A stretch of DNA of 64,000 bases from Chaetoceros tenuissimus (Eukaryota; Bacillariophyta; Thalassiosirophyceae; Chaetocerotales; Chaetocerotaceae). This document shows, in pieces, positions 41,947 to 49,790 of this stretch. The number at the start of each line of letters is the position of its first letter. The stretch's first letter is position 1. The notes below the pieces were generated by a model. The model saw only the letters and a list, made by a program, of their open reading frames with translations, did no database searches and was not told the origin of the DNA. The position numbers and the translations under genes were made by a program. The stretch lies in contig BLLK01000069.1 of assembly GCA_021927905.1 (NCBI GenBank), positions 1,860,001-1,924,000 on the forward strand, written 5' to 3'.

Positions 41947-42400
41947 ATCAGATTGGATTTGAACCTATCAATTGTGTCTTTTATATTTCAGCTGCAAAAA
42001 AAAATGAATATAAGACTGTATCATATGAGCATCATGCAGAAAAACAAACTGACGATGCAGGAAACGCTATCAATGAGAAAGCTGAAAGTAGTAGTAAGAA
42101 TCGAATCGAATCAAATGATGAAGAAGAGAAATCGAATCAAATGAATCCAACGCACGAGTCAAATGTCAGCAAAGAATTAGAGTGTCCGCTTATAATCTAA
42201 AAGCAATAGGTTATGTTAACCAATGATATCTTTTTCAAAGAAAGTTCAATACGAAAAATTCACTCGTACGTACTGAGATGACATTTAGACATCGAGCTAT
42301 GAGAACCACACAATCGATGCTCAACAATCACAAGAAAACAAAAAGACTTTCCTCATAAAATCCAGTACAAAGGACCTTTACCTTTCTACCTTTGAATTGG
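41947..42400. other. Divergent intergenic region
   Basis: Promoter side of the metallophosphoesterase gene (minus) and of inverted-repeat copy 1 (plus). A plus-strand open stretch to 42200 is Lys/Asn/Glu-rich and unsupported. The minus strand has a T-run followed by GCAG near 41992, a possible leader-intron acceptor. Confidence 0.45.
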
Positions 42401-44273
42401 ATGTGGCGCCTATCTACCGCCACTTTGCGAGAAAGGAGAACCTCTTATACTACCAAAATCGTAGCTAACAAGAGGTTCCATCATGCTCTAGCTCTTCAAC
42501 TTGATTACTACATGTCACCACAATTTGCAGGTGTTGCTTCTGCTCTCGTGAACAACAACTATGCAAACAAAGGTATTGACATCAAGTTCCTTCCAACATG
42601 TCCAGTAGGTCATGAGCAGGCAAACGTGAGAAAGTATCAAGATGCCAATCCTAGCAGTGTTACAATGGGTACTGTGGAGCAAAACATCTTCACTCCGACA
42701 TTGGCTGCAGACCCTACATTGAAGACCACTGCTGTTGCTTCAATGTTTTCCAAGTCTCCCTTGTGCATTGCATCTTTGAAGGATCCACAATCAGAATCAC
42801 TCAAGATTGGTGCACATGAAGATACTGTAGAGTTGATGAAGCGTATCTTTCCATCACATGAAGTGGTTGCATCTCCTCGTGCGACAAAGAATACAGATCT
42901 ATTGTCAAACAATGATGGTATCAGTGCTATCCAGGCGTATACCACCACTGAGGTCCCAGCATTGCGTCGTGTACTCAAAGAAGACCCAGTTGTGACGACA
43001 CTTGAAGGCTTGAATGGCACAAAGCTAGGATACAGTCAGTTGATCTTTACTGCAGATGAATGTTTGAAGGGAGATCAACGTGCGGTTGTGCAGGCGTTTT
43101 GCGAGGCGACTTTTGAGGGTTGGGCAAATGCTATTCGCAATCCAGAGGAAGCTATGCAGATGGTGAATGAGGCGAAGAAGATGCTAGGGCTTGATGATGA
43201 GTCCAATGACCACTGGCACCCATCTTCTGAGTTTGACTTGGAGATGTTGAAGAGTTGTGATGACTTTGTGAAGGGGACATATGAAGGAGATCGCTATGGT
43301 GTGATCAATGCTGATCGTTGGAACGAGGCAAATACTTGGTTGATGAAGGGCAAGGTATCAAAAGACTTTGGCTTTGATCGTGAGGTATGGCAGCCACCAA
43401 AGAACTTGCTCCCAGGAAACAATCTAGCTCGTACTATTTTGGATGATGCGAAGAACTCGGCAACATTCTTTGAACAGACTTATGGACGCAAGCCATCACT
43501 TGCAGTGATTACGGTTGGTGACTTGAAGCGCTATCAGCACGGTGAACGTCGTCTTCAGATCTATAGCAATACATCTAGCAGTTGGTTTTCCAAGACTAGC
43601 ACAGGTGCTGCGAATGGGTTTGATGTGGAAGAGATCAATCTTGATTCATCAACTACTACTGATGAGTTGCTGAGTCAGATCTATGCGCTACGCGACGTGG
43701 ATGGTATTCAGTTGATGTGGCCACTACCAGATCATATCGACACTGCACGTGTATATTCGGCGATTGATGTTGCAAAGGATGTGGACGGCATTCATTACAT
43801 TGGACAGATGGAGATTGGGAACAAGGATGCTTATCCACCAGTGACACCAGCAGCAGCATTGGCATTGATGGATCAGCATGGAGTGGATGTATCAGGGAAG
43901 CGTGTGTTGGTGATTGGACGTAGTCCTATTGTAGGGTCTCCAATCGCACATATGGTTCGTGAGAAAGGTGGAGCAGTGACAGTGGCACATTCTGGTGTGA
44001 ATGAGGATGACTTGAAGACTCTAGTGGGAGAAGCAGATGTAGTGATCACTTGTGTAGGAGAGCCAGGACTAGTGAAGGCTGAATGGATCAAGGGCGCAGA
44101 TGTTGTGAATGTTGGTACAACTTTTGTAGAGGAGTTGGACTCATTGGTATCTGATGTTGAGGGAGATATTGGGAAGTATGCGAGTCGTTATAGTCCAGTA
44201 CCAGGAGGAATTGGTCCGTTGTCAGCACCAATGTTGTTCAAGAATGTAGCGAAGGCGGCTTGGGATCAAATGA
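42361..44273 (+). repeat. Left arm (1913 bp) of a large inverted duplication
   Basis: Near-identical reverse complement of 47644-49556, with arms of equal length (no net indel). It spans the 5' leader and the THI5-FolD coding region. Differences cluster at the two ends; long internal stretches look identical. Confidence 0.93.
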
Positions 44274-44278
44274 AGTAG
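42401..44278 (+). CDS. THI5/NMT1-like domain fused to FolD-type MTHF dehydrogenase/cyclohydrolase (inverted copy 1)
   Basis: 625 aa from ATG 42401. The N-terminus MWRLSTATLRERRTSYTTK is Arg/Ser/Thr-rich and acid-poor before its first Glu, suggesting mitochondrial targeting. Residues about 30-330 resemble the SsuA/THI5 (NMT1) substrate-binding fold: LALQLDYYMSPQFAGVASAL, GIDIKFLPTCPVGHEQANVR, and FCEATFEGWANAIRNPEEA. The Cys-rich catalytic motif of fungal THI5 is not seen. Residues about 345-625 are FolD: PSLAVITVGDL, IQLMWPLPDHID, AKDVDGIHYIGQMEIG, VLVIGRSPIVGSPIAH and the C-terminal YSPVPGGIGPLSAPMLFKN. FolD interconverts methylene-, methenyl- and formyl-THF. The Tyr-x3-Lys active-site motif is not in canonical form. 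The gene ends ATG-AAG-TAG exactly where the other copy continues into further domains. Confidence 0.88.
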   Translation: MWRLSTATLRERRTSYTTKIVANKRFHHALALQLDYYMSPQFAGVASALVNNNYANKGIDIKFLPTCPVGHEQANVRKYQDANPSSVTMGTVEQNIFTPTLAADPTLKTTAVASMFSKSPLCIASLKDPQSESLKIGAHEDTVELMKRIFPSHEVVASPRATKNTDLLSNNDGISAIQAYTTTEVPALRRVLKEDPVVTTLEGLNGTKLGYSQLIFTADECLKGDQRAVVQAFCEATFEGWANAIRNPEEAMQMVNEAKKMLGLDDESNDHWHPSSEFDLEMLKSCDDFVKGTYEGDRYGVINADRWNEANTWLMKGKVSKDFGFDREVWQPPKNLLPGNNLARTILDDAKNSATFFEQTYGRKPSLAVITVGDLKRYQHGERRLQIYSNTSSSWFSKTSTGAANGFDVEEINLDSSTTTDELLSQIYALRDVDGIQLMWPLPDHIDTARVYSAIDVAKDVDGIHYIGQMEIGNKDAYPPVTPAAALALMDQHGVDVSGKRVLVIGRSPIVGSPIAHMVREKGGAVTVAHSGVNEDDLKTLVGEADVVITCVGEPGLVKAEWIKGADVVNVGTTFVEELDSLVSDVEGDIGKYASRYSPVPGGIGPLSAPMLFKNVAKAAWDQMK

Positions 44279-44666
44279 GAGATGTTCATTTATGCTCTTC
44301 TTTCATTTTTTTTGAAAAAATGAAGGGTATAAGGAACTGAATGACCATACCTTAGACTTGGACCTAATTTAAATGTCTCATTTTGAAACATACTCAACTC
44401 AATCTCTTCTCTCTTTTTACCAAGATGAATTACTCTTCCGAGTACATAAATATGAAGCATTACCATGTCATCAAAAGTAAGTAGAAAAATGAAGTTGGGG
44501 ACGTTTCCATGTTCATGTTATATTTTGATTATGATTCATTTATTTGGAGTCATAAATTTATGAAAGAATTATGTGAATTCCAATGCTGAAGCAAAGTTGT
44601 CTACTGGCCATAATAGATGAATGACTTTGAAAAGCACGATTCGCTCGGCTCCAAATTTTCTGCGCA
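44279..44666. other. Intergenic
   Basis: 3' flank of copy 1 and promoter of the rhomboid gene. Has no counterpart near copy 2, so homology stops at the end of the FolD domain. Confidence 0.45.
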
Positions 44667-45824
44667 TTGGCTTGCTCAAAAAATACTCGAAAAAGAACAA
44701 CATCAAATAATGTGTTAGTAGATAGAACTTTACCCACAATTATAAAATCCTTGACTTCTTCTCTAAGTGCAAAAATGCCGTTACCAATGTTCAGAAAGCA
44801 ACCCATATCGATAATAAAACGATATTTTTCTTTCGTGAGGAATGTTACAATTCGCAATGTGCACAGCAGAAAGAAGAACCAGTTTCGTCCTCTGGCAAAA
44901 AGTAAAACTTCGACACCTACACTTGGATATTCGCATACATCGTGGGGGAAAACGTTTCTAGACTTTCCATTTCCAAGCAGCATTTACTTACGACATGAAA
45001 GTACCATTTTGAAACCCAGGTATTCAGGATTTTCGGCTTGGGTTGGATTATTATCATTTAGTGCAGTCAATACTGGAGTATTTATTCTTTGGCAGAATGA
45101 TGATGAAGCATGGCAAGAAAAAATGAATGACCATTTTACTTGTTCGCTACGAAATACGAAAGAAAGGCCGTGGACTCTATTCAATGCGTGTATATCTCAT
45201 CAATCTTTTGCGCATTACTTTGGAAATATGGCAGCTTTGTGGATATTTGGGTTCAGTACCTTTCGTGTTATTGGTCCTGCTAGTTTTATATCGTTGTATT
45301 GCTATGGTGGTATCATTTCATCTATGACACATGTAGGTCACAATGCTTTCACTGGAAGGACTGGGCCTACGTTAACAAAGGAAGAAATAGCCTTACTCGA
45401 AAAATCGATTCATGGAAAACAAGATGAGGAAGGTCACGTAGATTTCGAAAAGTATGTTCCACCAGATCTTTTAAGAAAATTTAGAGCGAGTGACATGCCT
45501 AGTCTCGGGGCATCCGGAAGTATCATGGCGGTTTCAGCAGTATGTGCAACATTATTTCCTCTTGATAAGATTAGGCTCCCAAATCCTAGAGTTAGAGTCC
45601 CTGTCAACATTCCCGTAGCTGTTGGTATTTATGTTTTCTCGGATTTGATAGGAATTACTGCTGGACAAGATGGTGATAATGTTGGACATTCTGCACATTT
45701 AGGAGGTGTTGCTTTGGGTTCCTTATTCTCATACAGAAATTGGTATAAAGGAGCTTGGAAAACGACTGGAGATTTGCCCTTACTATATAGATTAGGACAG
45801 TGGAGACTGTCAAGAAAGAAGTAG
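44667..45824 (+). CDS. Mitochondrial rhomboid protease (PARL/Pcp1-like)
   Basis: Intramembrane serine protease, 385 aa (start 44667) or 349 aa (start 44775, MPLPMFRKQ). The N-terminus is basic and Ser-rich, in line with mitochondrial import. Hydrophobic helices include SAWVGLLSFSAVNTGVFILW. The rhomboid markers are all present: the WTLFNACISHQSFAHYFGNM block (HxxxHxxxNM), the nucleophile SLGASGSIMAVSAVCA (GASG Ser) and the catalytic His in GHSAHLGGVALGSLF. A 40-residue charged insertion (TKEEIALLEKSIHGKQDEEG) lies before the GASG helix, as in PARL-type proteins. The gene sits in the 3.4-kb spacer of the inverted duplication. Confidence 0.9.
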   Translation: MACSKNTRKRTTSNNVLVDRTLPTIIKSLTSSLSAKMPLPMFRKQPISIIKRYFSFVRNVTIRNVHSRKKNQFRPLAKSKTSTPTLGYSHTSWGKTFLDFPFPSSIYLRHESTILKPRYSGFSAWVGLLSFSAVNTGVFILWQNDDEAWQEKMNDHFTCSLRNTKERPWTLFNACISHQSFAHYFGNMAALWIFGFSTFRVIGPASFISLYCYGGIISSMTHVGHNAFTGRTGPTLTKEEIALLEKSIHGKQDEEGHVDFEKYVPPDLLRKFRASDMPSLGASGSIMAVSAVCATLFPLDKIRLPNPRVRVPVNIPVAVGIYVFSDLIGITAGQDGDNVGHSAHLGGVALGSLFSYRNWYKGAWKTTGDLPLLYRLGQWRLSRKK

Positions 45825-46043: not shown

Positions 46044-49000
46044 TTAGCGGATAGTGCCTGATAATCCAGGGCGGGAAAACATGCAAACATCACCAAATGA
46101 TAAAAATCTGTAGCCATTGGCCTGGGCATCTTCATAAATTTGAGGAATTTTGCTCCCAGCTGAATCTTTGATTAACGCAGAAACTAGCAACATCAGAGTA
46201 GAATCAGGGGCATGGAAGTTTGTAACTAAGTGATCCACAACTTTGAATTCATAGATAGGTGGTGAAATCATCAATGATGTTTGTCCGTGGATATATTCAG
46301 AGTCATCAAGTCCGTCAATTAAAGCTTCGAAAGCAGCAATTCTAGATACGTTGCGTCCTTCACCAACTTTCAAAGGTACCCAGTCAAATTGCCCGAGTGA
46401 AAGCGATGGAGACCCATCGTCAAGACCTCTAATACGCTTTACTCCACACCAAAATAGACTTTCCAATGTTCTACTCGATGTAGTTCCAACAACTATCAAT
46501 GGTTTGTTTTGTTTCAATGCACTAATGATAGACTTCAACTCTTTCACTGATACTGCAAATGTTTCTGCATGCATTTCGTGATCCCTTGCATCTTTTACCA
46601 TAACTGGTTTGAATGTACCTGCTCCAACATGAAGAGATAAATAGCTGCAGTTCTCAGGTCCAATTTCGTTCAAAACTTCCTCTGTGAAGTGGAGACCAGC
46701 TGTAGGAGCTGCAACTGAACCAGCATTTGCAGCATAAGTATTGTTATAAGATTCATGGTCCTTTTCCTCGGAATCTCTATGAAGATATGGTGGAATTGGA
46801 ACAGAACCTGCTTTTCCGAGATACTCTTCCACAGAAGATTCACTGTTGATGGTTACAAAACACTCAGTTCCATTTCCATCACTCTTCTCATCCTCCTCCC
46901 AAATTCTGTCATGAAATCAAAGTTAAAAAACGCCCCAATTCCAAGAAATGACGAAATTAAGATTGCCATGACTTACCCTTTGATGCCAACAACTTCAATT
47001 GTACCATTTCCACCATATTCGTCAAAAGTATCTCCAACTTGGATATTTTCAGCACGAATCATAGCTTGGAGCGAAGTAGTATTACATGATTTAGAAACGT
47101 TGATGGAACCAAGGTCGAGAATCATCAGTTCAACTTTAGATCCGTTTGAACCCTTCACAAAGAGTCTGGCATCTAGTACCCGACTGTCATTGAAAACGAG
47201 ATGACACCCTTTTGCCAGGGAAGGAAAAACTTCAGAGAAGTTGTCATAGTATGTAATATTTCCTGGACCATCACATCTCAATAGTTTTGAGCTTCCTCTT
47301 GGATTTGCTGGATATTTTGCAATACTTTCTTCATTCAAGTTGTAAGAATATTTATCCATTTCAACTGTATCCTTAGACAGGATCATATCCACAGCTTGTG
47401 CTGCATCATAATCTTTTTCCGTAATTTGCTTTGCTTCGAATGTAAAAAATTCGAGTTCCATCTCACATCCATGCACGCATTTATGAGTAAGCTTCATGTT
47501 AGCATGGTGATCCATAATTGTACTTAATTCATCAACTTTTTTCGCAGCTTCAAGAGCTTCAGTATAGCTATCAAAATGATAAGTTTTTGTAAGCGTTGCA
47601 GGATGTCTATCCCAGCCATTGTCAACAACGATTCCAGTTCTACTCATTTGATCCCAAGCCGCCTTCGCTACATTCTTGAACAGCATTGGTGCTGACAACG
47701 GACCAATTCCTCCTGGTACTGGACTATAACGACCCGCATACTTCCCAATGTCTCCCTCAACATCAGATACCAATGAATCCAACTCCTCTACAAAGGTTGT
47801 ACCAACATTCACAACATCTGCACCCTTGACCCATTCAGCCTTCACTAGTCCTGGCTCTCCTGCACAAGTGATCACTACATCTGCTTCTCCCACTAGAGTC
47901 TTCAAGTCATCCTCACTCACACCAGAATGTGCAACTGTCACTGCTCCACCTTTCTCACGAACCATGTGTGCGATTGGAGACCCTACAATAGGACTACGTC
48001 CAATCACCAACACACGCTTCCCTGATACATCCACTCCATGCTGATCCATCAATGCCAATGCTGCTGCTGGTGTCACTGGTGGATAAGCATCCTTGTTCCC
48101 AATCTCCATCTGTCCAATGTAATGAATGCCGTCCACATCCTTTGCAACATCAATCGCCGAATATACACGTGCAGTGTCGATATGATCTGGTAGTGGCCAC
48201 ATCAACTGAATACCATCCACGTCGCGTAGCGCATAGATCTGACTCAGCAACTCATCAGTAGTAGTTGATGAATCAAGATTGATCTCTTCCACATCAAACC
48301 CATTCGCAGCACCTGTGCTAGTCTTGGAAAACCAACTGCTAGATGTATTGCTATAGATCTGAAGACGACGTTCACCGTGCTGATAGCGCTTCAAGTCACC
48401 AACCGTAATCACTGCAAGTGATGGCTTGCGTCCATAAGTCTGTTCAAAGAATGTTGCCGAGTTCTTCGCATCATCCAAAATAGTACGAGCTAGATTGTTT
48501 CCTGGGAGCAAGTTCTTTGGTGGCTGCCATACCTCACGATCAAAGCCAAAGTCTTTTGATACCTTGCCCTTCATCAACCAAGTATTTGCCTCGTTCCAAC
48601 GATCAGCATTGATCACACCATAGCGATCTCCTTCATATGTCCCCTTCACAAAGTCATCACAACTCTTCAACATCTCCAAGTCAAACTCAGAAGATGGGTG
48701 CCAGTGGTCATTGGACTCATCATCAAGCCCTAGCATCTTCTTCGCCTCATTCACCATCTGCATAGCTTCCTCTGGATTGCGAATAGCATTTGCCCAACCC
48801 TCAAAAGTCGCCTCGCAAAACGCCTGCACAACCGCACGTTGATCTCCCTTCAAACATTCATCTGCAGTAAAGATCAACTGACTGTATCCTAGCTTTGTGC
48901 CATTCAAGCCTTCAAGTGTCGTCACAACTGGGTCTTCTTTGAGTACACGACGCAATGCTGGGACCTCAGTGGTGGTATACGCCTGGATAGCACTGATACC

Positions 49001-49516
49001 ATCATTGTTTGACAATAGATCTGTATTCTTTGTCGCACGAGGAGATGCAACCACTTCATGTGATGGAAAGATACGCTTCATCAACTCTACAGTATCTTCA
49101 TGTGCACCAATCTTGAGTGATTCTGATTGTGGATCCTTCAAAGATGCAATGCACAAGGGAGACTTGGAAAACATTGAAGCAACAGCAGTGGTCTTCAATG
49201 TAGGGTCTGCAGCCAATGTCGGAGTGAAGATGTTTTGCTCCACAGTACCCATTGTAACACTGCTAGGATTGGCATCTTGATACTTTCTCACGTTTGCCTG
49301 CTCATGGCCTACTGGACATGTTGGAAGGAACTTGATGTCAATACCTTTGTTTGCATAGTTGTTGTTCACGAGGGCAGAAGCAACACCTGCAAATTGTGGT
49401 GACATGTAGTAATCAAGTTGAAGAGCTAGAGCATGTTGGAACCTCTTGTTAGCTACGATTTTGGTAGTATAAGAGGTTCTCCTTTCTCGCAAAGTGGCGG
49501 TAGATAGGCGCCACAT
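46044..49516 (-). CDS. Four-domain fusion: THI5-like, FolD, pterin carbinolamine dehydratase, QueA (inverted copy 2)
   Basis: 1133 aa. Exon 1 is 49516-46977, exon 2 is 46905-46044, with a 71-bp intron. Residues 1-624 nearly equal copy 1 (THI5/NMT1-like plus FolD, with an N-terminal presequence). Past the junction WDQM-SRTGIVVDNGW comes a PCD/DCoH-like unit (about 630-705): TYHFDSYTEALEAAKKV, then the dehydratase DHHANMKLT motif. Residues about 745-1133 are a complete S-adenosylmethionine:tRNA ribosyltransferase-isomerase (QueA): LVFNDSRVLDARLF, GKVEVMI-like SKVELMILDL, SVAAPTAGLHFTEEVL, LSLHVGAGTFKPV, MHAE, VGTTSSRTLES, VTNFHAPDSTLMLLVSAL and a RFLSFGDVCMF end. QueA adds an epoxycyclopentane ring to preQ1 in tRNA. 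All domains appear intact. Its presence in a eukaryotic nuclear gene is unexpected. Confidence 0.9.
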
Positions 49517-49556
49517 CCAATTCAAAGGTAGAAAGGTAAAGGTCCTCTGCACTGGA
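47644..49556 (-). repeat. Right arm (1913 bp) of a large inverted duplication
   Basis: Reverse complement of 42361-44273. The spacer between arms is 3370 bp. The arm ends at the last codon of FolD on one side and in the 5' leader on the other. Confidence 0.93.
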
Positions 49557-49790
49557 ATTTAATATGCACAAGATGACAGAGAGGTGAGTTGATGCCATGG
49601 TGAAAGTGTGGTGAAAAAATAAAATGATGGGCAGGATTATGTCGCTCACAAGTAGTGATGTCACTGCAAATACGCCAACATGATAGGGACAACATTAAAT
49701 GGGACTAAATTACATAATTTTCAATATTGACACCGACACACTCGCTGTCATTGGAGTTAAGAGATTTTTACGCTCTTGTCCTATGTGCAC

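Follow-up and report, generated by a model that had tools for sequence, protein, structure and literature searches.

The minus strand of the Chaetoceros tenuissimus window (i.e. the whole 64-kb stretch of DNA that was analysed) carries a chimeric gene, which encodes a predicted protein of 1133 amino acids with a basic presequence followed by an NMT1-like, a FolD-like, a PCD-like and a complete QueA domain (Pfam; Table 1). The start ATG lies at position 49516, and the coding sequence is divided into exon 1 (49516-46977) and exon 2 (46905-46044, including the stop codon). Of 16 donor/acceptor pairs tried for the intron, an open frame through QueA was kept by two, and the alternative frame-keeping pair results in the loss of eight QueA residues. 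A sequence-only reading of this DNA had placed one frame with one intron here and had named the domains in the same order; coordinates, intron and order were all right, and the six peptides it quoted are present in the translation. The N-terminus, which it called Arg-rich, is basic and of mitochondrial type as judged by eye. The adjoining plus strand harbors an unfused NMT1-FolD gene and a rhomboid-family ORF, the latter of which is not taken to belong to the queuosine pathway. The G+C content of the window is 39.2%.

Table 1. Features of the chimeric gene and its surroundings (positions in the window).
Feature	Position	Strand	Basis
Unfused NMT1-FolD gene, 625 aa, other copy	42401..44278	+	
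Inverted-repeat arm 1, 1918 nt	42356..44273	+	
Rhomboid-family ORF (stop to stop), spacer between the repeat arms	44631..45824	+	Pfam
Chimeric gene NMT1-like/FolD-like/PCD-like/QueA, 1133 aa, one intron	46044..49516	-	ORF, Pfam
Complete QueA domain, intron-split, with an insert of ~40-45 residues as in Bacteroidota	46044..47359	-	
Intron, 71 nt, GT-AG (GTAAGT...ACAG), within the QueA domain	46906..46976	-	
PCD-like domain, without the catalytic motif	47384..47620	-	PF01329
Junction GATCAAATGAGTAGAACTGG... (D Q M S R T G); neighbour copy GATCAAATGAAGTAG (D Q M K stop)	47633..47653	-	
Inverted-repeat arm 2, 1918 nt (17 differences between the arms)	47644..49561	-	
FolD-like domain	47654..48505	-	PF00763 and PF02882; also in the neighbour copy
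NMT1-like domain, boundaries approximate	48506..49450	-	PF09084 E 2.8e-8, partial; weak matches 4nmy and FAMP-binding protein 3ix1
Basic N-terminus, mitochondrial type, MWRLSTATLRERRTSYTTK...	49400..49516	-	judged by eye

Bacterial contamination, which the sequence-only reading had tied to a loss of intron and presequence, can be rejected: an intron interrupts the gene, the contig measures 3.3 Mb and the surrounding ORFs look eukaryotic by eye. A presequence is, as judged by eye, likewise present, and introns are found in the chimera, in QueH and in one bacterial-like TGT (see below).

The NMT1-FolD half of the chimera is a copy of the adjoining plus-strand gene. This inverted copy had been missed in the sequence-only reading. 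The two arms of the repeat are 99% identical, and arm 2 (49561-47644) comprises the first 1873 nt of the chimera together with the 45 nt that precede its ATG. The neighbour gene ends with ...WDQMK-stop; at the same site the chimera reads ...WDQMSRTG, after which the PCD domain follows. Three of the 17 differences between the arms are located before the ATG and 14 in the coding sequence (nine synonymous, five nonsynonymous). They leave a run of 1340 nt untouched, consistent with gene conversion between the arms (if the differences were evenly spread, a run of this length would have a probability of ~2.5e-8 by formula; it was seen in 0 of 200,000 simulations). The 3370-nt spacer is unique and the outer flanks of the arms differ, with no homology outside the arms beyond that of shuffled sequences (scores as high in 190 and 420 of 500 shuffles upstream and in 244 of 500 downstream). 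The copied unit therefore consisted of the coding sequence and a few bases. A single tblastn match to QueA behind the unfused copy (E 1.1) was taken as chance, and a single-sequence query with the NMT1-FolD protein, which reaches close relatives only, confirmed no relatives in viral contigs. A third NMT1-like protein in the genome stands alone, is 62% identical and ends at the NMT1/FolD boundary.

The chimera looks like the product of duplication and fusion rather than like a designed folate-pterin-deazaguanine enzyme, because its NMT1-FolD half is a 99% identical inverted copy of the neighbour and its PCD domain has no catalytic motif. As to the order of events, we infer that the copied NMT1-FolD was fused to a PCD-QueA gene, since the junction holds an in-frame ATG, the PCD profile is truncated at its start and there is no linker; in a possible alternative order, copy 1 lost its tail. 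GC at third codon positions (GC3) is 261/623 codons before the junction and only 149/510 after it (Fisher p 1.0e-5). This shift weighs little, because the best single breakpoint is codon 504 and not codon 624, where the junction lies, and C-ending pyrimidine codons are alike on both sides (41/129 vs 41/122).

A joint function linking folate, pterin and 7-deazaguanine chemistry, as the sequence-only reading had envisaged, is not supported by the domains in front of QueA, since NMT1-FolD was copied, the PCD motif is missing and the Gln of FolD is replaced by Met. The NMT1-like domain matches PF09084 at profile positions 163-216 of 216 only, and among solved chains two solute-binding proteins come nearest (E 0.043 and 0.058), which it may weakly resemble. 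THI5 (HMP-P synthase) is marked by a CCCFC motif. By eye, this motif is absent from the 1133-aa translation, and with a weak and partial PF09084 match the earlier label ‘THI5’ was overstated. A single-sequence AlphaFold model of the domain reached a mean pLDDT of 33.9 and was set aside.

FolD enzymes are characterized by the conserved Gln of VQLPLP and a catalytic Lys. Like FolD, the chimera has both FolD Pfam domains (PF00763, E 1.3e-14; PF02882, E 1.1e-36); unlike FolD, it carries Met in place of the Gln of VQLPLP (in each of the five alignments compared, out of 26 matches). Assignment of the catalytic Lys depends on the alignment: of the two alignments that cover the site, one shows Tyr, and one shows Lys when read across insertions. 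The FolD-like domain may still be active. The genome contains a better FolD match elsewhere (contig C16, L010; E 8.1e-44). PCD, in turn, is recognized by the catalytic motif [EDKH]x3H[HN][PCS]x5-6[YWF]x9[HW]x8-15D. The fused domain resembles PCD/DCoH in matching PF01329 at positions 16-90 of 91 (E 2.5e-9), but neither it nor L017 has the motif, in contrast to the genome's PCD at contig C27 (L014). We consider the fused PCD part as probably a non-catalytic remnant or a dimerising piece. A further PCD match is located at contig C32.

The QueA domain itself matches PF02547 over nearly its full length, with E 1.9e-16 in exon 1 and 2.9e-61 in exon 2 (profile positions 2-105 and 105-321 of 322). These two exon matches are the sole PF02547 matches in the 41.03-Mb genome (41,027,912 bases in 68 contigs searched). 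The domain narrowly passes the TIGR00113 equivalog cut-off (269 vs 267.45 bits) and stays below the stricter NF001140 cut-off (285.6 vs 324). In 83 bacterial rows, 67 columns are conserved at a level of 95% or more, of which the domain keeps 65; at the 90% level it keeps 76 of 82. The two exceptions at the 95% level are Q182N and T183N, at positions where Q182 is found in 83/83 and T183 in 82/83 bacterial rows; in a leave-one-out control, bacterial rows departed at up to five conserved columns (median 0). The conserved residues, the known functions of the family and the presence of QueH in the same genome suggest that the domain works as QueA (EC 2.4.99.17).

For QueA trees, the best 80 of at least 592 confirmed genome loci and 7 of 53 matching plasmid records were used. 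Four of the genome loci, without a single long open frame (L027, L034, L101, L103), were dropped, leaving 83 rows plus the 1133-aa protein. In these quick trees, with SH-aLRT values as their sole support measure, the diatom QueA falls on the Bacteroidota/Kapabacteria side with a support of 99, and of 98.6 after removal of 204 insert or gappy columns. Without the diatom QueA, the Bacteroidota/Kapabacteria group has a support of 87 in the trimmed tree. The diatom domain may nest within or beside this group, a placement that is loose owing to a long end branch (2.55 and 1.96 changes per column in the two trees). The sequence-only reading had looked to such a tree for the donor; the tree indicates the side and, with this branch length, does not reach below phylum level. 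Between the GTTxxR and NFH blocks lie 80 residues in the diatom QueA and 70-90 in the 54 measurable of the 62 Bacteroidota/Kapabacteria-side rows; of the 21 other rows, 19 have 32-41. Bacteroidota do not stand out by plain identity, with 35 and 38% to two Bacteroidota and 36-39% to five others. The highest identity among the 83 rows is 40% to a Bacillota row (L085) in the alignment of the first tree and 42% to a Bacteroidota row (L040) in the gappy-column-trimmed tree. The QueA of Parabacteroides (WP_010182051.1, L018) is like the diatom domain in its whole-length domain, the insert before the TNFH block and the side of the tree. Unlike the latter, it stands alone in a gene annotated with 404 aa and has YQT where the diatom has YNN; the identity of the two is 35% (at most 42% for any row). 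Viral contigs yielded another 67 QueA loci (best E 4e-53 vs 1e-70 in the genome set), which were left out of the tree. Based on the tree side and the common insert, we regard the domain as QueA of Bacteroidota/Kapabacteria type, presumably transferred from bacteria into a nuclear, intron-bearing gene. It may share its origin with red algal and Chloropicon QueA, the rows compared here being all bacterial.

Other queuosine genes were searched in the genome with profiles exon by exon, an approach by which a split gene could be missed, such that no match does not equal proven absence. The TGT family yielded five matches, which represent four genes. The gene on contig C17 is taken as QTRT1 (top score, GGLAGG loop by eye) and that at C48:618455 as QTRT2 from a weak match (85.4 bits against TIGR00430, below the cut-off). 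The other two (C48:1486205 and contig C46) are bacterial-like TGTs; in a scan of these two and the QTRT2 candidate, L004 and L005/L007 reached 358.3 and 373.4 bits against TIGR00430 (cut-off 306.75). For L004, the one so compared, bacterial TGTs score higher (up to 247.9 bits) than animal QTRT1 (up to 206.1), and a single-sequence query with it, reaching close relatives only, confirmed no relatives in viral contigs. The pocket loop reads GGSLGK, unlike the loop of bacterial TGT. By eye, one bacterial-like TGT has a basic N-terminus of mitochondrial type, and the other has a signal-peptide-like stretch with SQAF, which we take to resemble diatom plastid presequences. QueH is full-length over two exons and intron-bearing (Pfam; 191.9 bits, profile 1-174 of 175). 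Its nearest solved chains are QueH, NCBIfam named no family for the spliced protein, and the best plasmid match among the matches listed has 50.6% identity over 74% of the query. No presequence is visible. QueH is cobalamin-independent, and we know of no job of this enzyme other than the step after QueA. QNG1 is present as well.

No genome match was obtained for QueC (PF06508; one first-look candidate scored and failed; the profile matched 12/14 control genomes), QueF (PF14489; two first-look candidates scored and failed; 8/14), QueG (PF08331; 7/14) or YhhQ (PF02592; 9/14). The latter was the one family tried as a preQ1 transporter, and no transporter was found. One PTPS-family gene is present, which could serve pterin metabolism and is not assignable as QueD. 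Of the genes that the sequence-only reading had listed for a search, bacterial-like TGTs and, by Pfam, QueH were found, QueG, QueC and QueF were not matched, and the PTPS match leaves QueD unassigned. The genome thus has further queuosine genes (four of the TGT family, QueH and QNG1), as that reading had expected, but its idea of partial de novo queuosine synthesis is not supported, with QueC and QueF unmatched.

In our best reading, these genes would complete queuosine on tRNA from salvaged preQ1 with the help of QueH, and would not synthesize it de novo. The NMT1-FolD gene, still kept as the neighbour, would have given rise to an inverted copy that became fused, in frame, with the coding sequence of PCD-QueA, the NMT1-FolD part mainly supplying expression and the mitochondrial presequence. 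PreQ1 would be taken from outside the cell, a source suggested by the missing matches to QueC and QueF. A bacterial-like TGT would insert it into position 34 of tRNAs with GUN anticodon, QueA would transfer the ribosyl part of S-adenosylmethionine to the tRNA-bound preQ1 to give epoxyqueuosine, and QueH would reduce epoxyqueuosine to queuosine; family functions and the co-occurrence of the genes point to these three steps. The QueA and QueH steps may take place in different compartments, because QueH has no visible presequence and the chimera has one. For the joint scenario, a chimera made by duplication together with QueA acting on tRNA preQ1 and completion by QueH from outside preQ1, we see an even chance. 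The more specific version, in which a B12-free late pathway combines bacterial preQ1, a mitochondrial four-domain QueA polyprotein on a duplicated carrier and a eukaryotic QueH, is tentative and somewhat doubtful. Weak points of the mechanism are Q182N/T183N, the TGT loop GGSLGK and the lack of a match to the one transporter family tried.

It appears unlikely that QueA is made separately, i.e. from a second transcript or from the junction ATG (M S R T G ...), as a cytosolic PCD-QueA protein that would lack a presequence, like QueH. Such a product would agree with the in-frame ATG directly before the PCD domain, with the drop in GC3 across the junction and with a QueH that likewise shows no visible presequence, but its PCD domain would miss the first 15 profile positions, and the GC3 break fits codon 504 better than codon 624 while C-ending pyrimidine codons remain alike. 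The loss of preQ1-tRNA activity in favor of a new substrate or role of the QueA domain has a still slighter claim. Q182N and T183N change a block that is otherwise practically constant in the bacterial rows, the end branch is long, the NF001140 cut-off is not reached and the TGT loop is unlike that of bacterial TGT. In contrast, the domain retains 65 of the 67 conserved columns, and the enzyme of the next step, QueH, is encoded in the same genome.

An assembly artefact, with the inverted copy or the junction misjoined and the real QueA N-terminus being a different one, is improbable. The genome of C. tenuissimus NIES-3715 is described as based on Nanopore and Illumina reads, with a heterozygosity of 1.56% (PMC8613185), which, if this is the genome analysed here, exceeds the arm divergence (17/1918). 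However, the arms have different outer flanks and enclose a unique spacer, the 17 differences with their untouched run fit two real loci with gene conversion, and with one extra base at the junction the PCD-QueA frame would have no start at this site. Full de novo synthesis of queuosine in the alga can be considered highly improbable: the single PTPS-family gene and the chance of missing a split gene in an exon-by-exon search speak for it, yet neither QueC nor QueF was matched.

The preferred reading, completion of queuosine from salvaged preQ1, departs from what is, to our knowledge, the common view, that eukaryotes salvage finished queuine only. The premise of the sequence-only reading that eukaryotes are without such enzymes is not supported, given that Chloropicon and some red algae are reported to have bacterial-like TGT, QueA and QueG (Genome Biol Evol 2025, PMC12301720). 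For Chloropicon mitochondria, that paper proposes preQ1 salvage by bacterial-like TGT, QueA, QueG and YhhQ, including preQ1 import and mitochondrial location; it reports red algal sequences as the closest relatives of Chloropicon QueA and YhhQ as missing in some strains (PMC12301720). Like Chloropicon, as characterized there, the diatom is an alga with QueA, bacterial-like TGT, QTRT1, QTRT2 and QNG1. Unlike Chloropicon, it has QueH, with QueG and YhhQ unmatched, as well as two bacterial-like TGTs and a QueA placed behind NMT1-FolD-PCD. QueH does not occur in the main text of PMC12301720, whose supplementary trees are mentioned as holding further eukaryotic homologues, among which a diatom QueA may be. 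Besides this paper, nothing to the point on diatom QueA or eukaryotic QueH turned up among the papers listed. Chlamydial TGTs, the presumed relatives of the bacterial-like TGTs, take queuine (PMC12301720), and by analogy the diatom enzymes may prefer queuine, too.

Measured against the Chloropicon and red algal system as set out in PMC12301720, the diatom genes are of a known kind and, in our best reading, make up a new, QueH-based version of algal preQ1 salvage in another algal group, with QueA residing in a chimera. Domain accretion also seems to be preserved in this genome in three stages side by side, i.e. NMT1 alone, NMT1-FolD and NMT1-FolD-PCD-QueA. Our results suggest that the alga does not build queuosine from scratch but completes it from a precursor made by bacteria, because the other late-step genes seem present and two early ones (QueC and QueF) were not matched. 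If true, preQ1 salvage would reach into a further major group of algae, where another enzyme takes the last step, and the modification of algal tRNA would be linked to bacteria in the surroundings of the cell.

The first domain of the chimera is 62% identical to a stand-alone NMT1-like paralogue, and the end point of this paralogue coincides with the NMT1/FolD boundary. Two bacterial-like TGTs (loci L004 and L005/L007) possess N-termini unlike each other, one mitochondrial-type and the other plastid-type as judged by eye. The same eukaryotic genome carries an intron-bearing QueH gene.

In the 1272-aa ORF of the window the SGGIDST motif appears PP-loop-like by eye; a methyltransferase domain is present and a cupin forms the C-terminal end. 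The 998-aa ORF starts acyltransferase/condensation-like (HAISDQ) and ends lipocalin-like, both by eye, and its sole Pfam match, PapA_C, is sub-threshold.

Features in the searched genome (G000) and in the window
Feature	Location	Strand
NMT1-like paralogue, stand-alone	L177:649-1737 (G000:C21:743648-744736)	
QueH (epoxyqueuosine reductase)	L009:1354-2365 (G000:C18)	
ORF, 1272 aa	59674-63492	-
ORF, 998 aa	14880-17876	-

The inverted-repeat arms (42356-44273 and 47644-49561) show 17 differences and a 1340-nt run without any, a pattern that fits gene conversion between them. Inversion of the 3370-nt spacer would switch the fused copy between arms.
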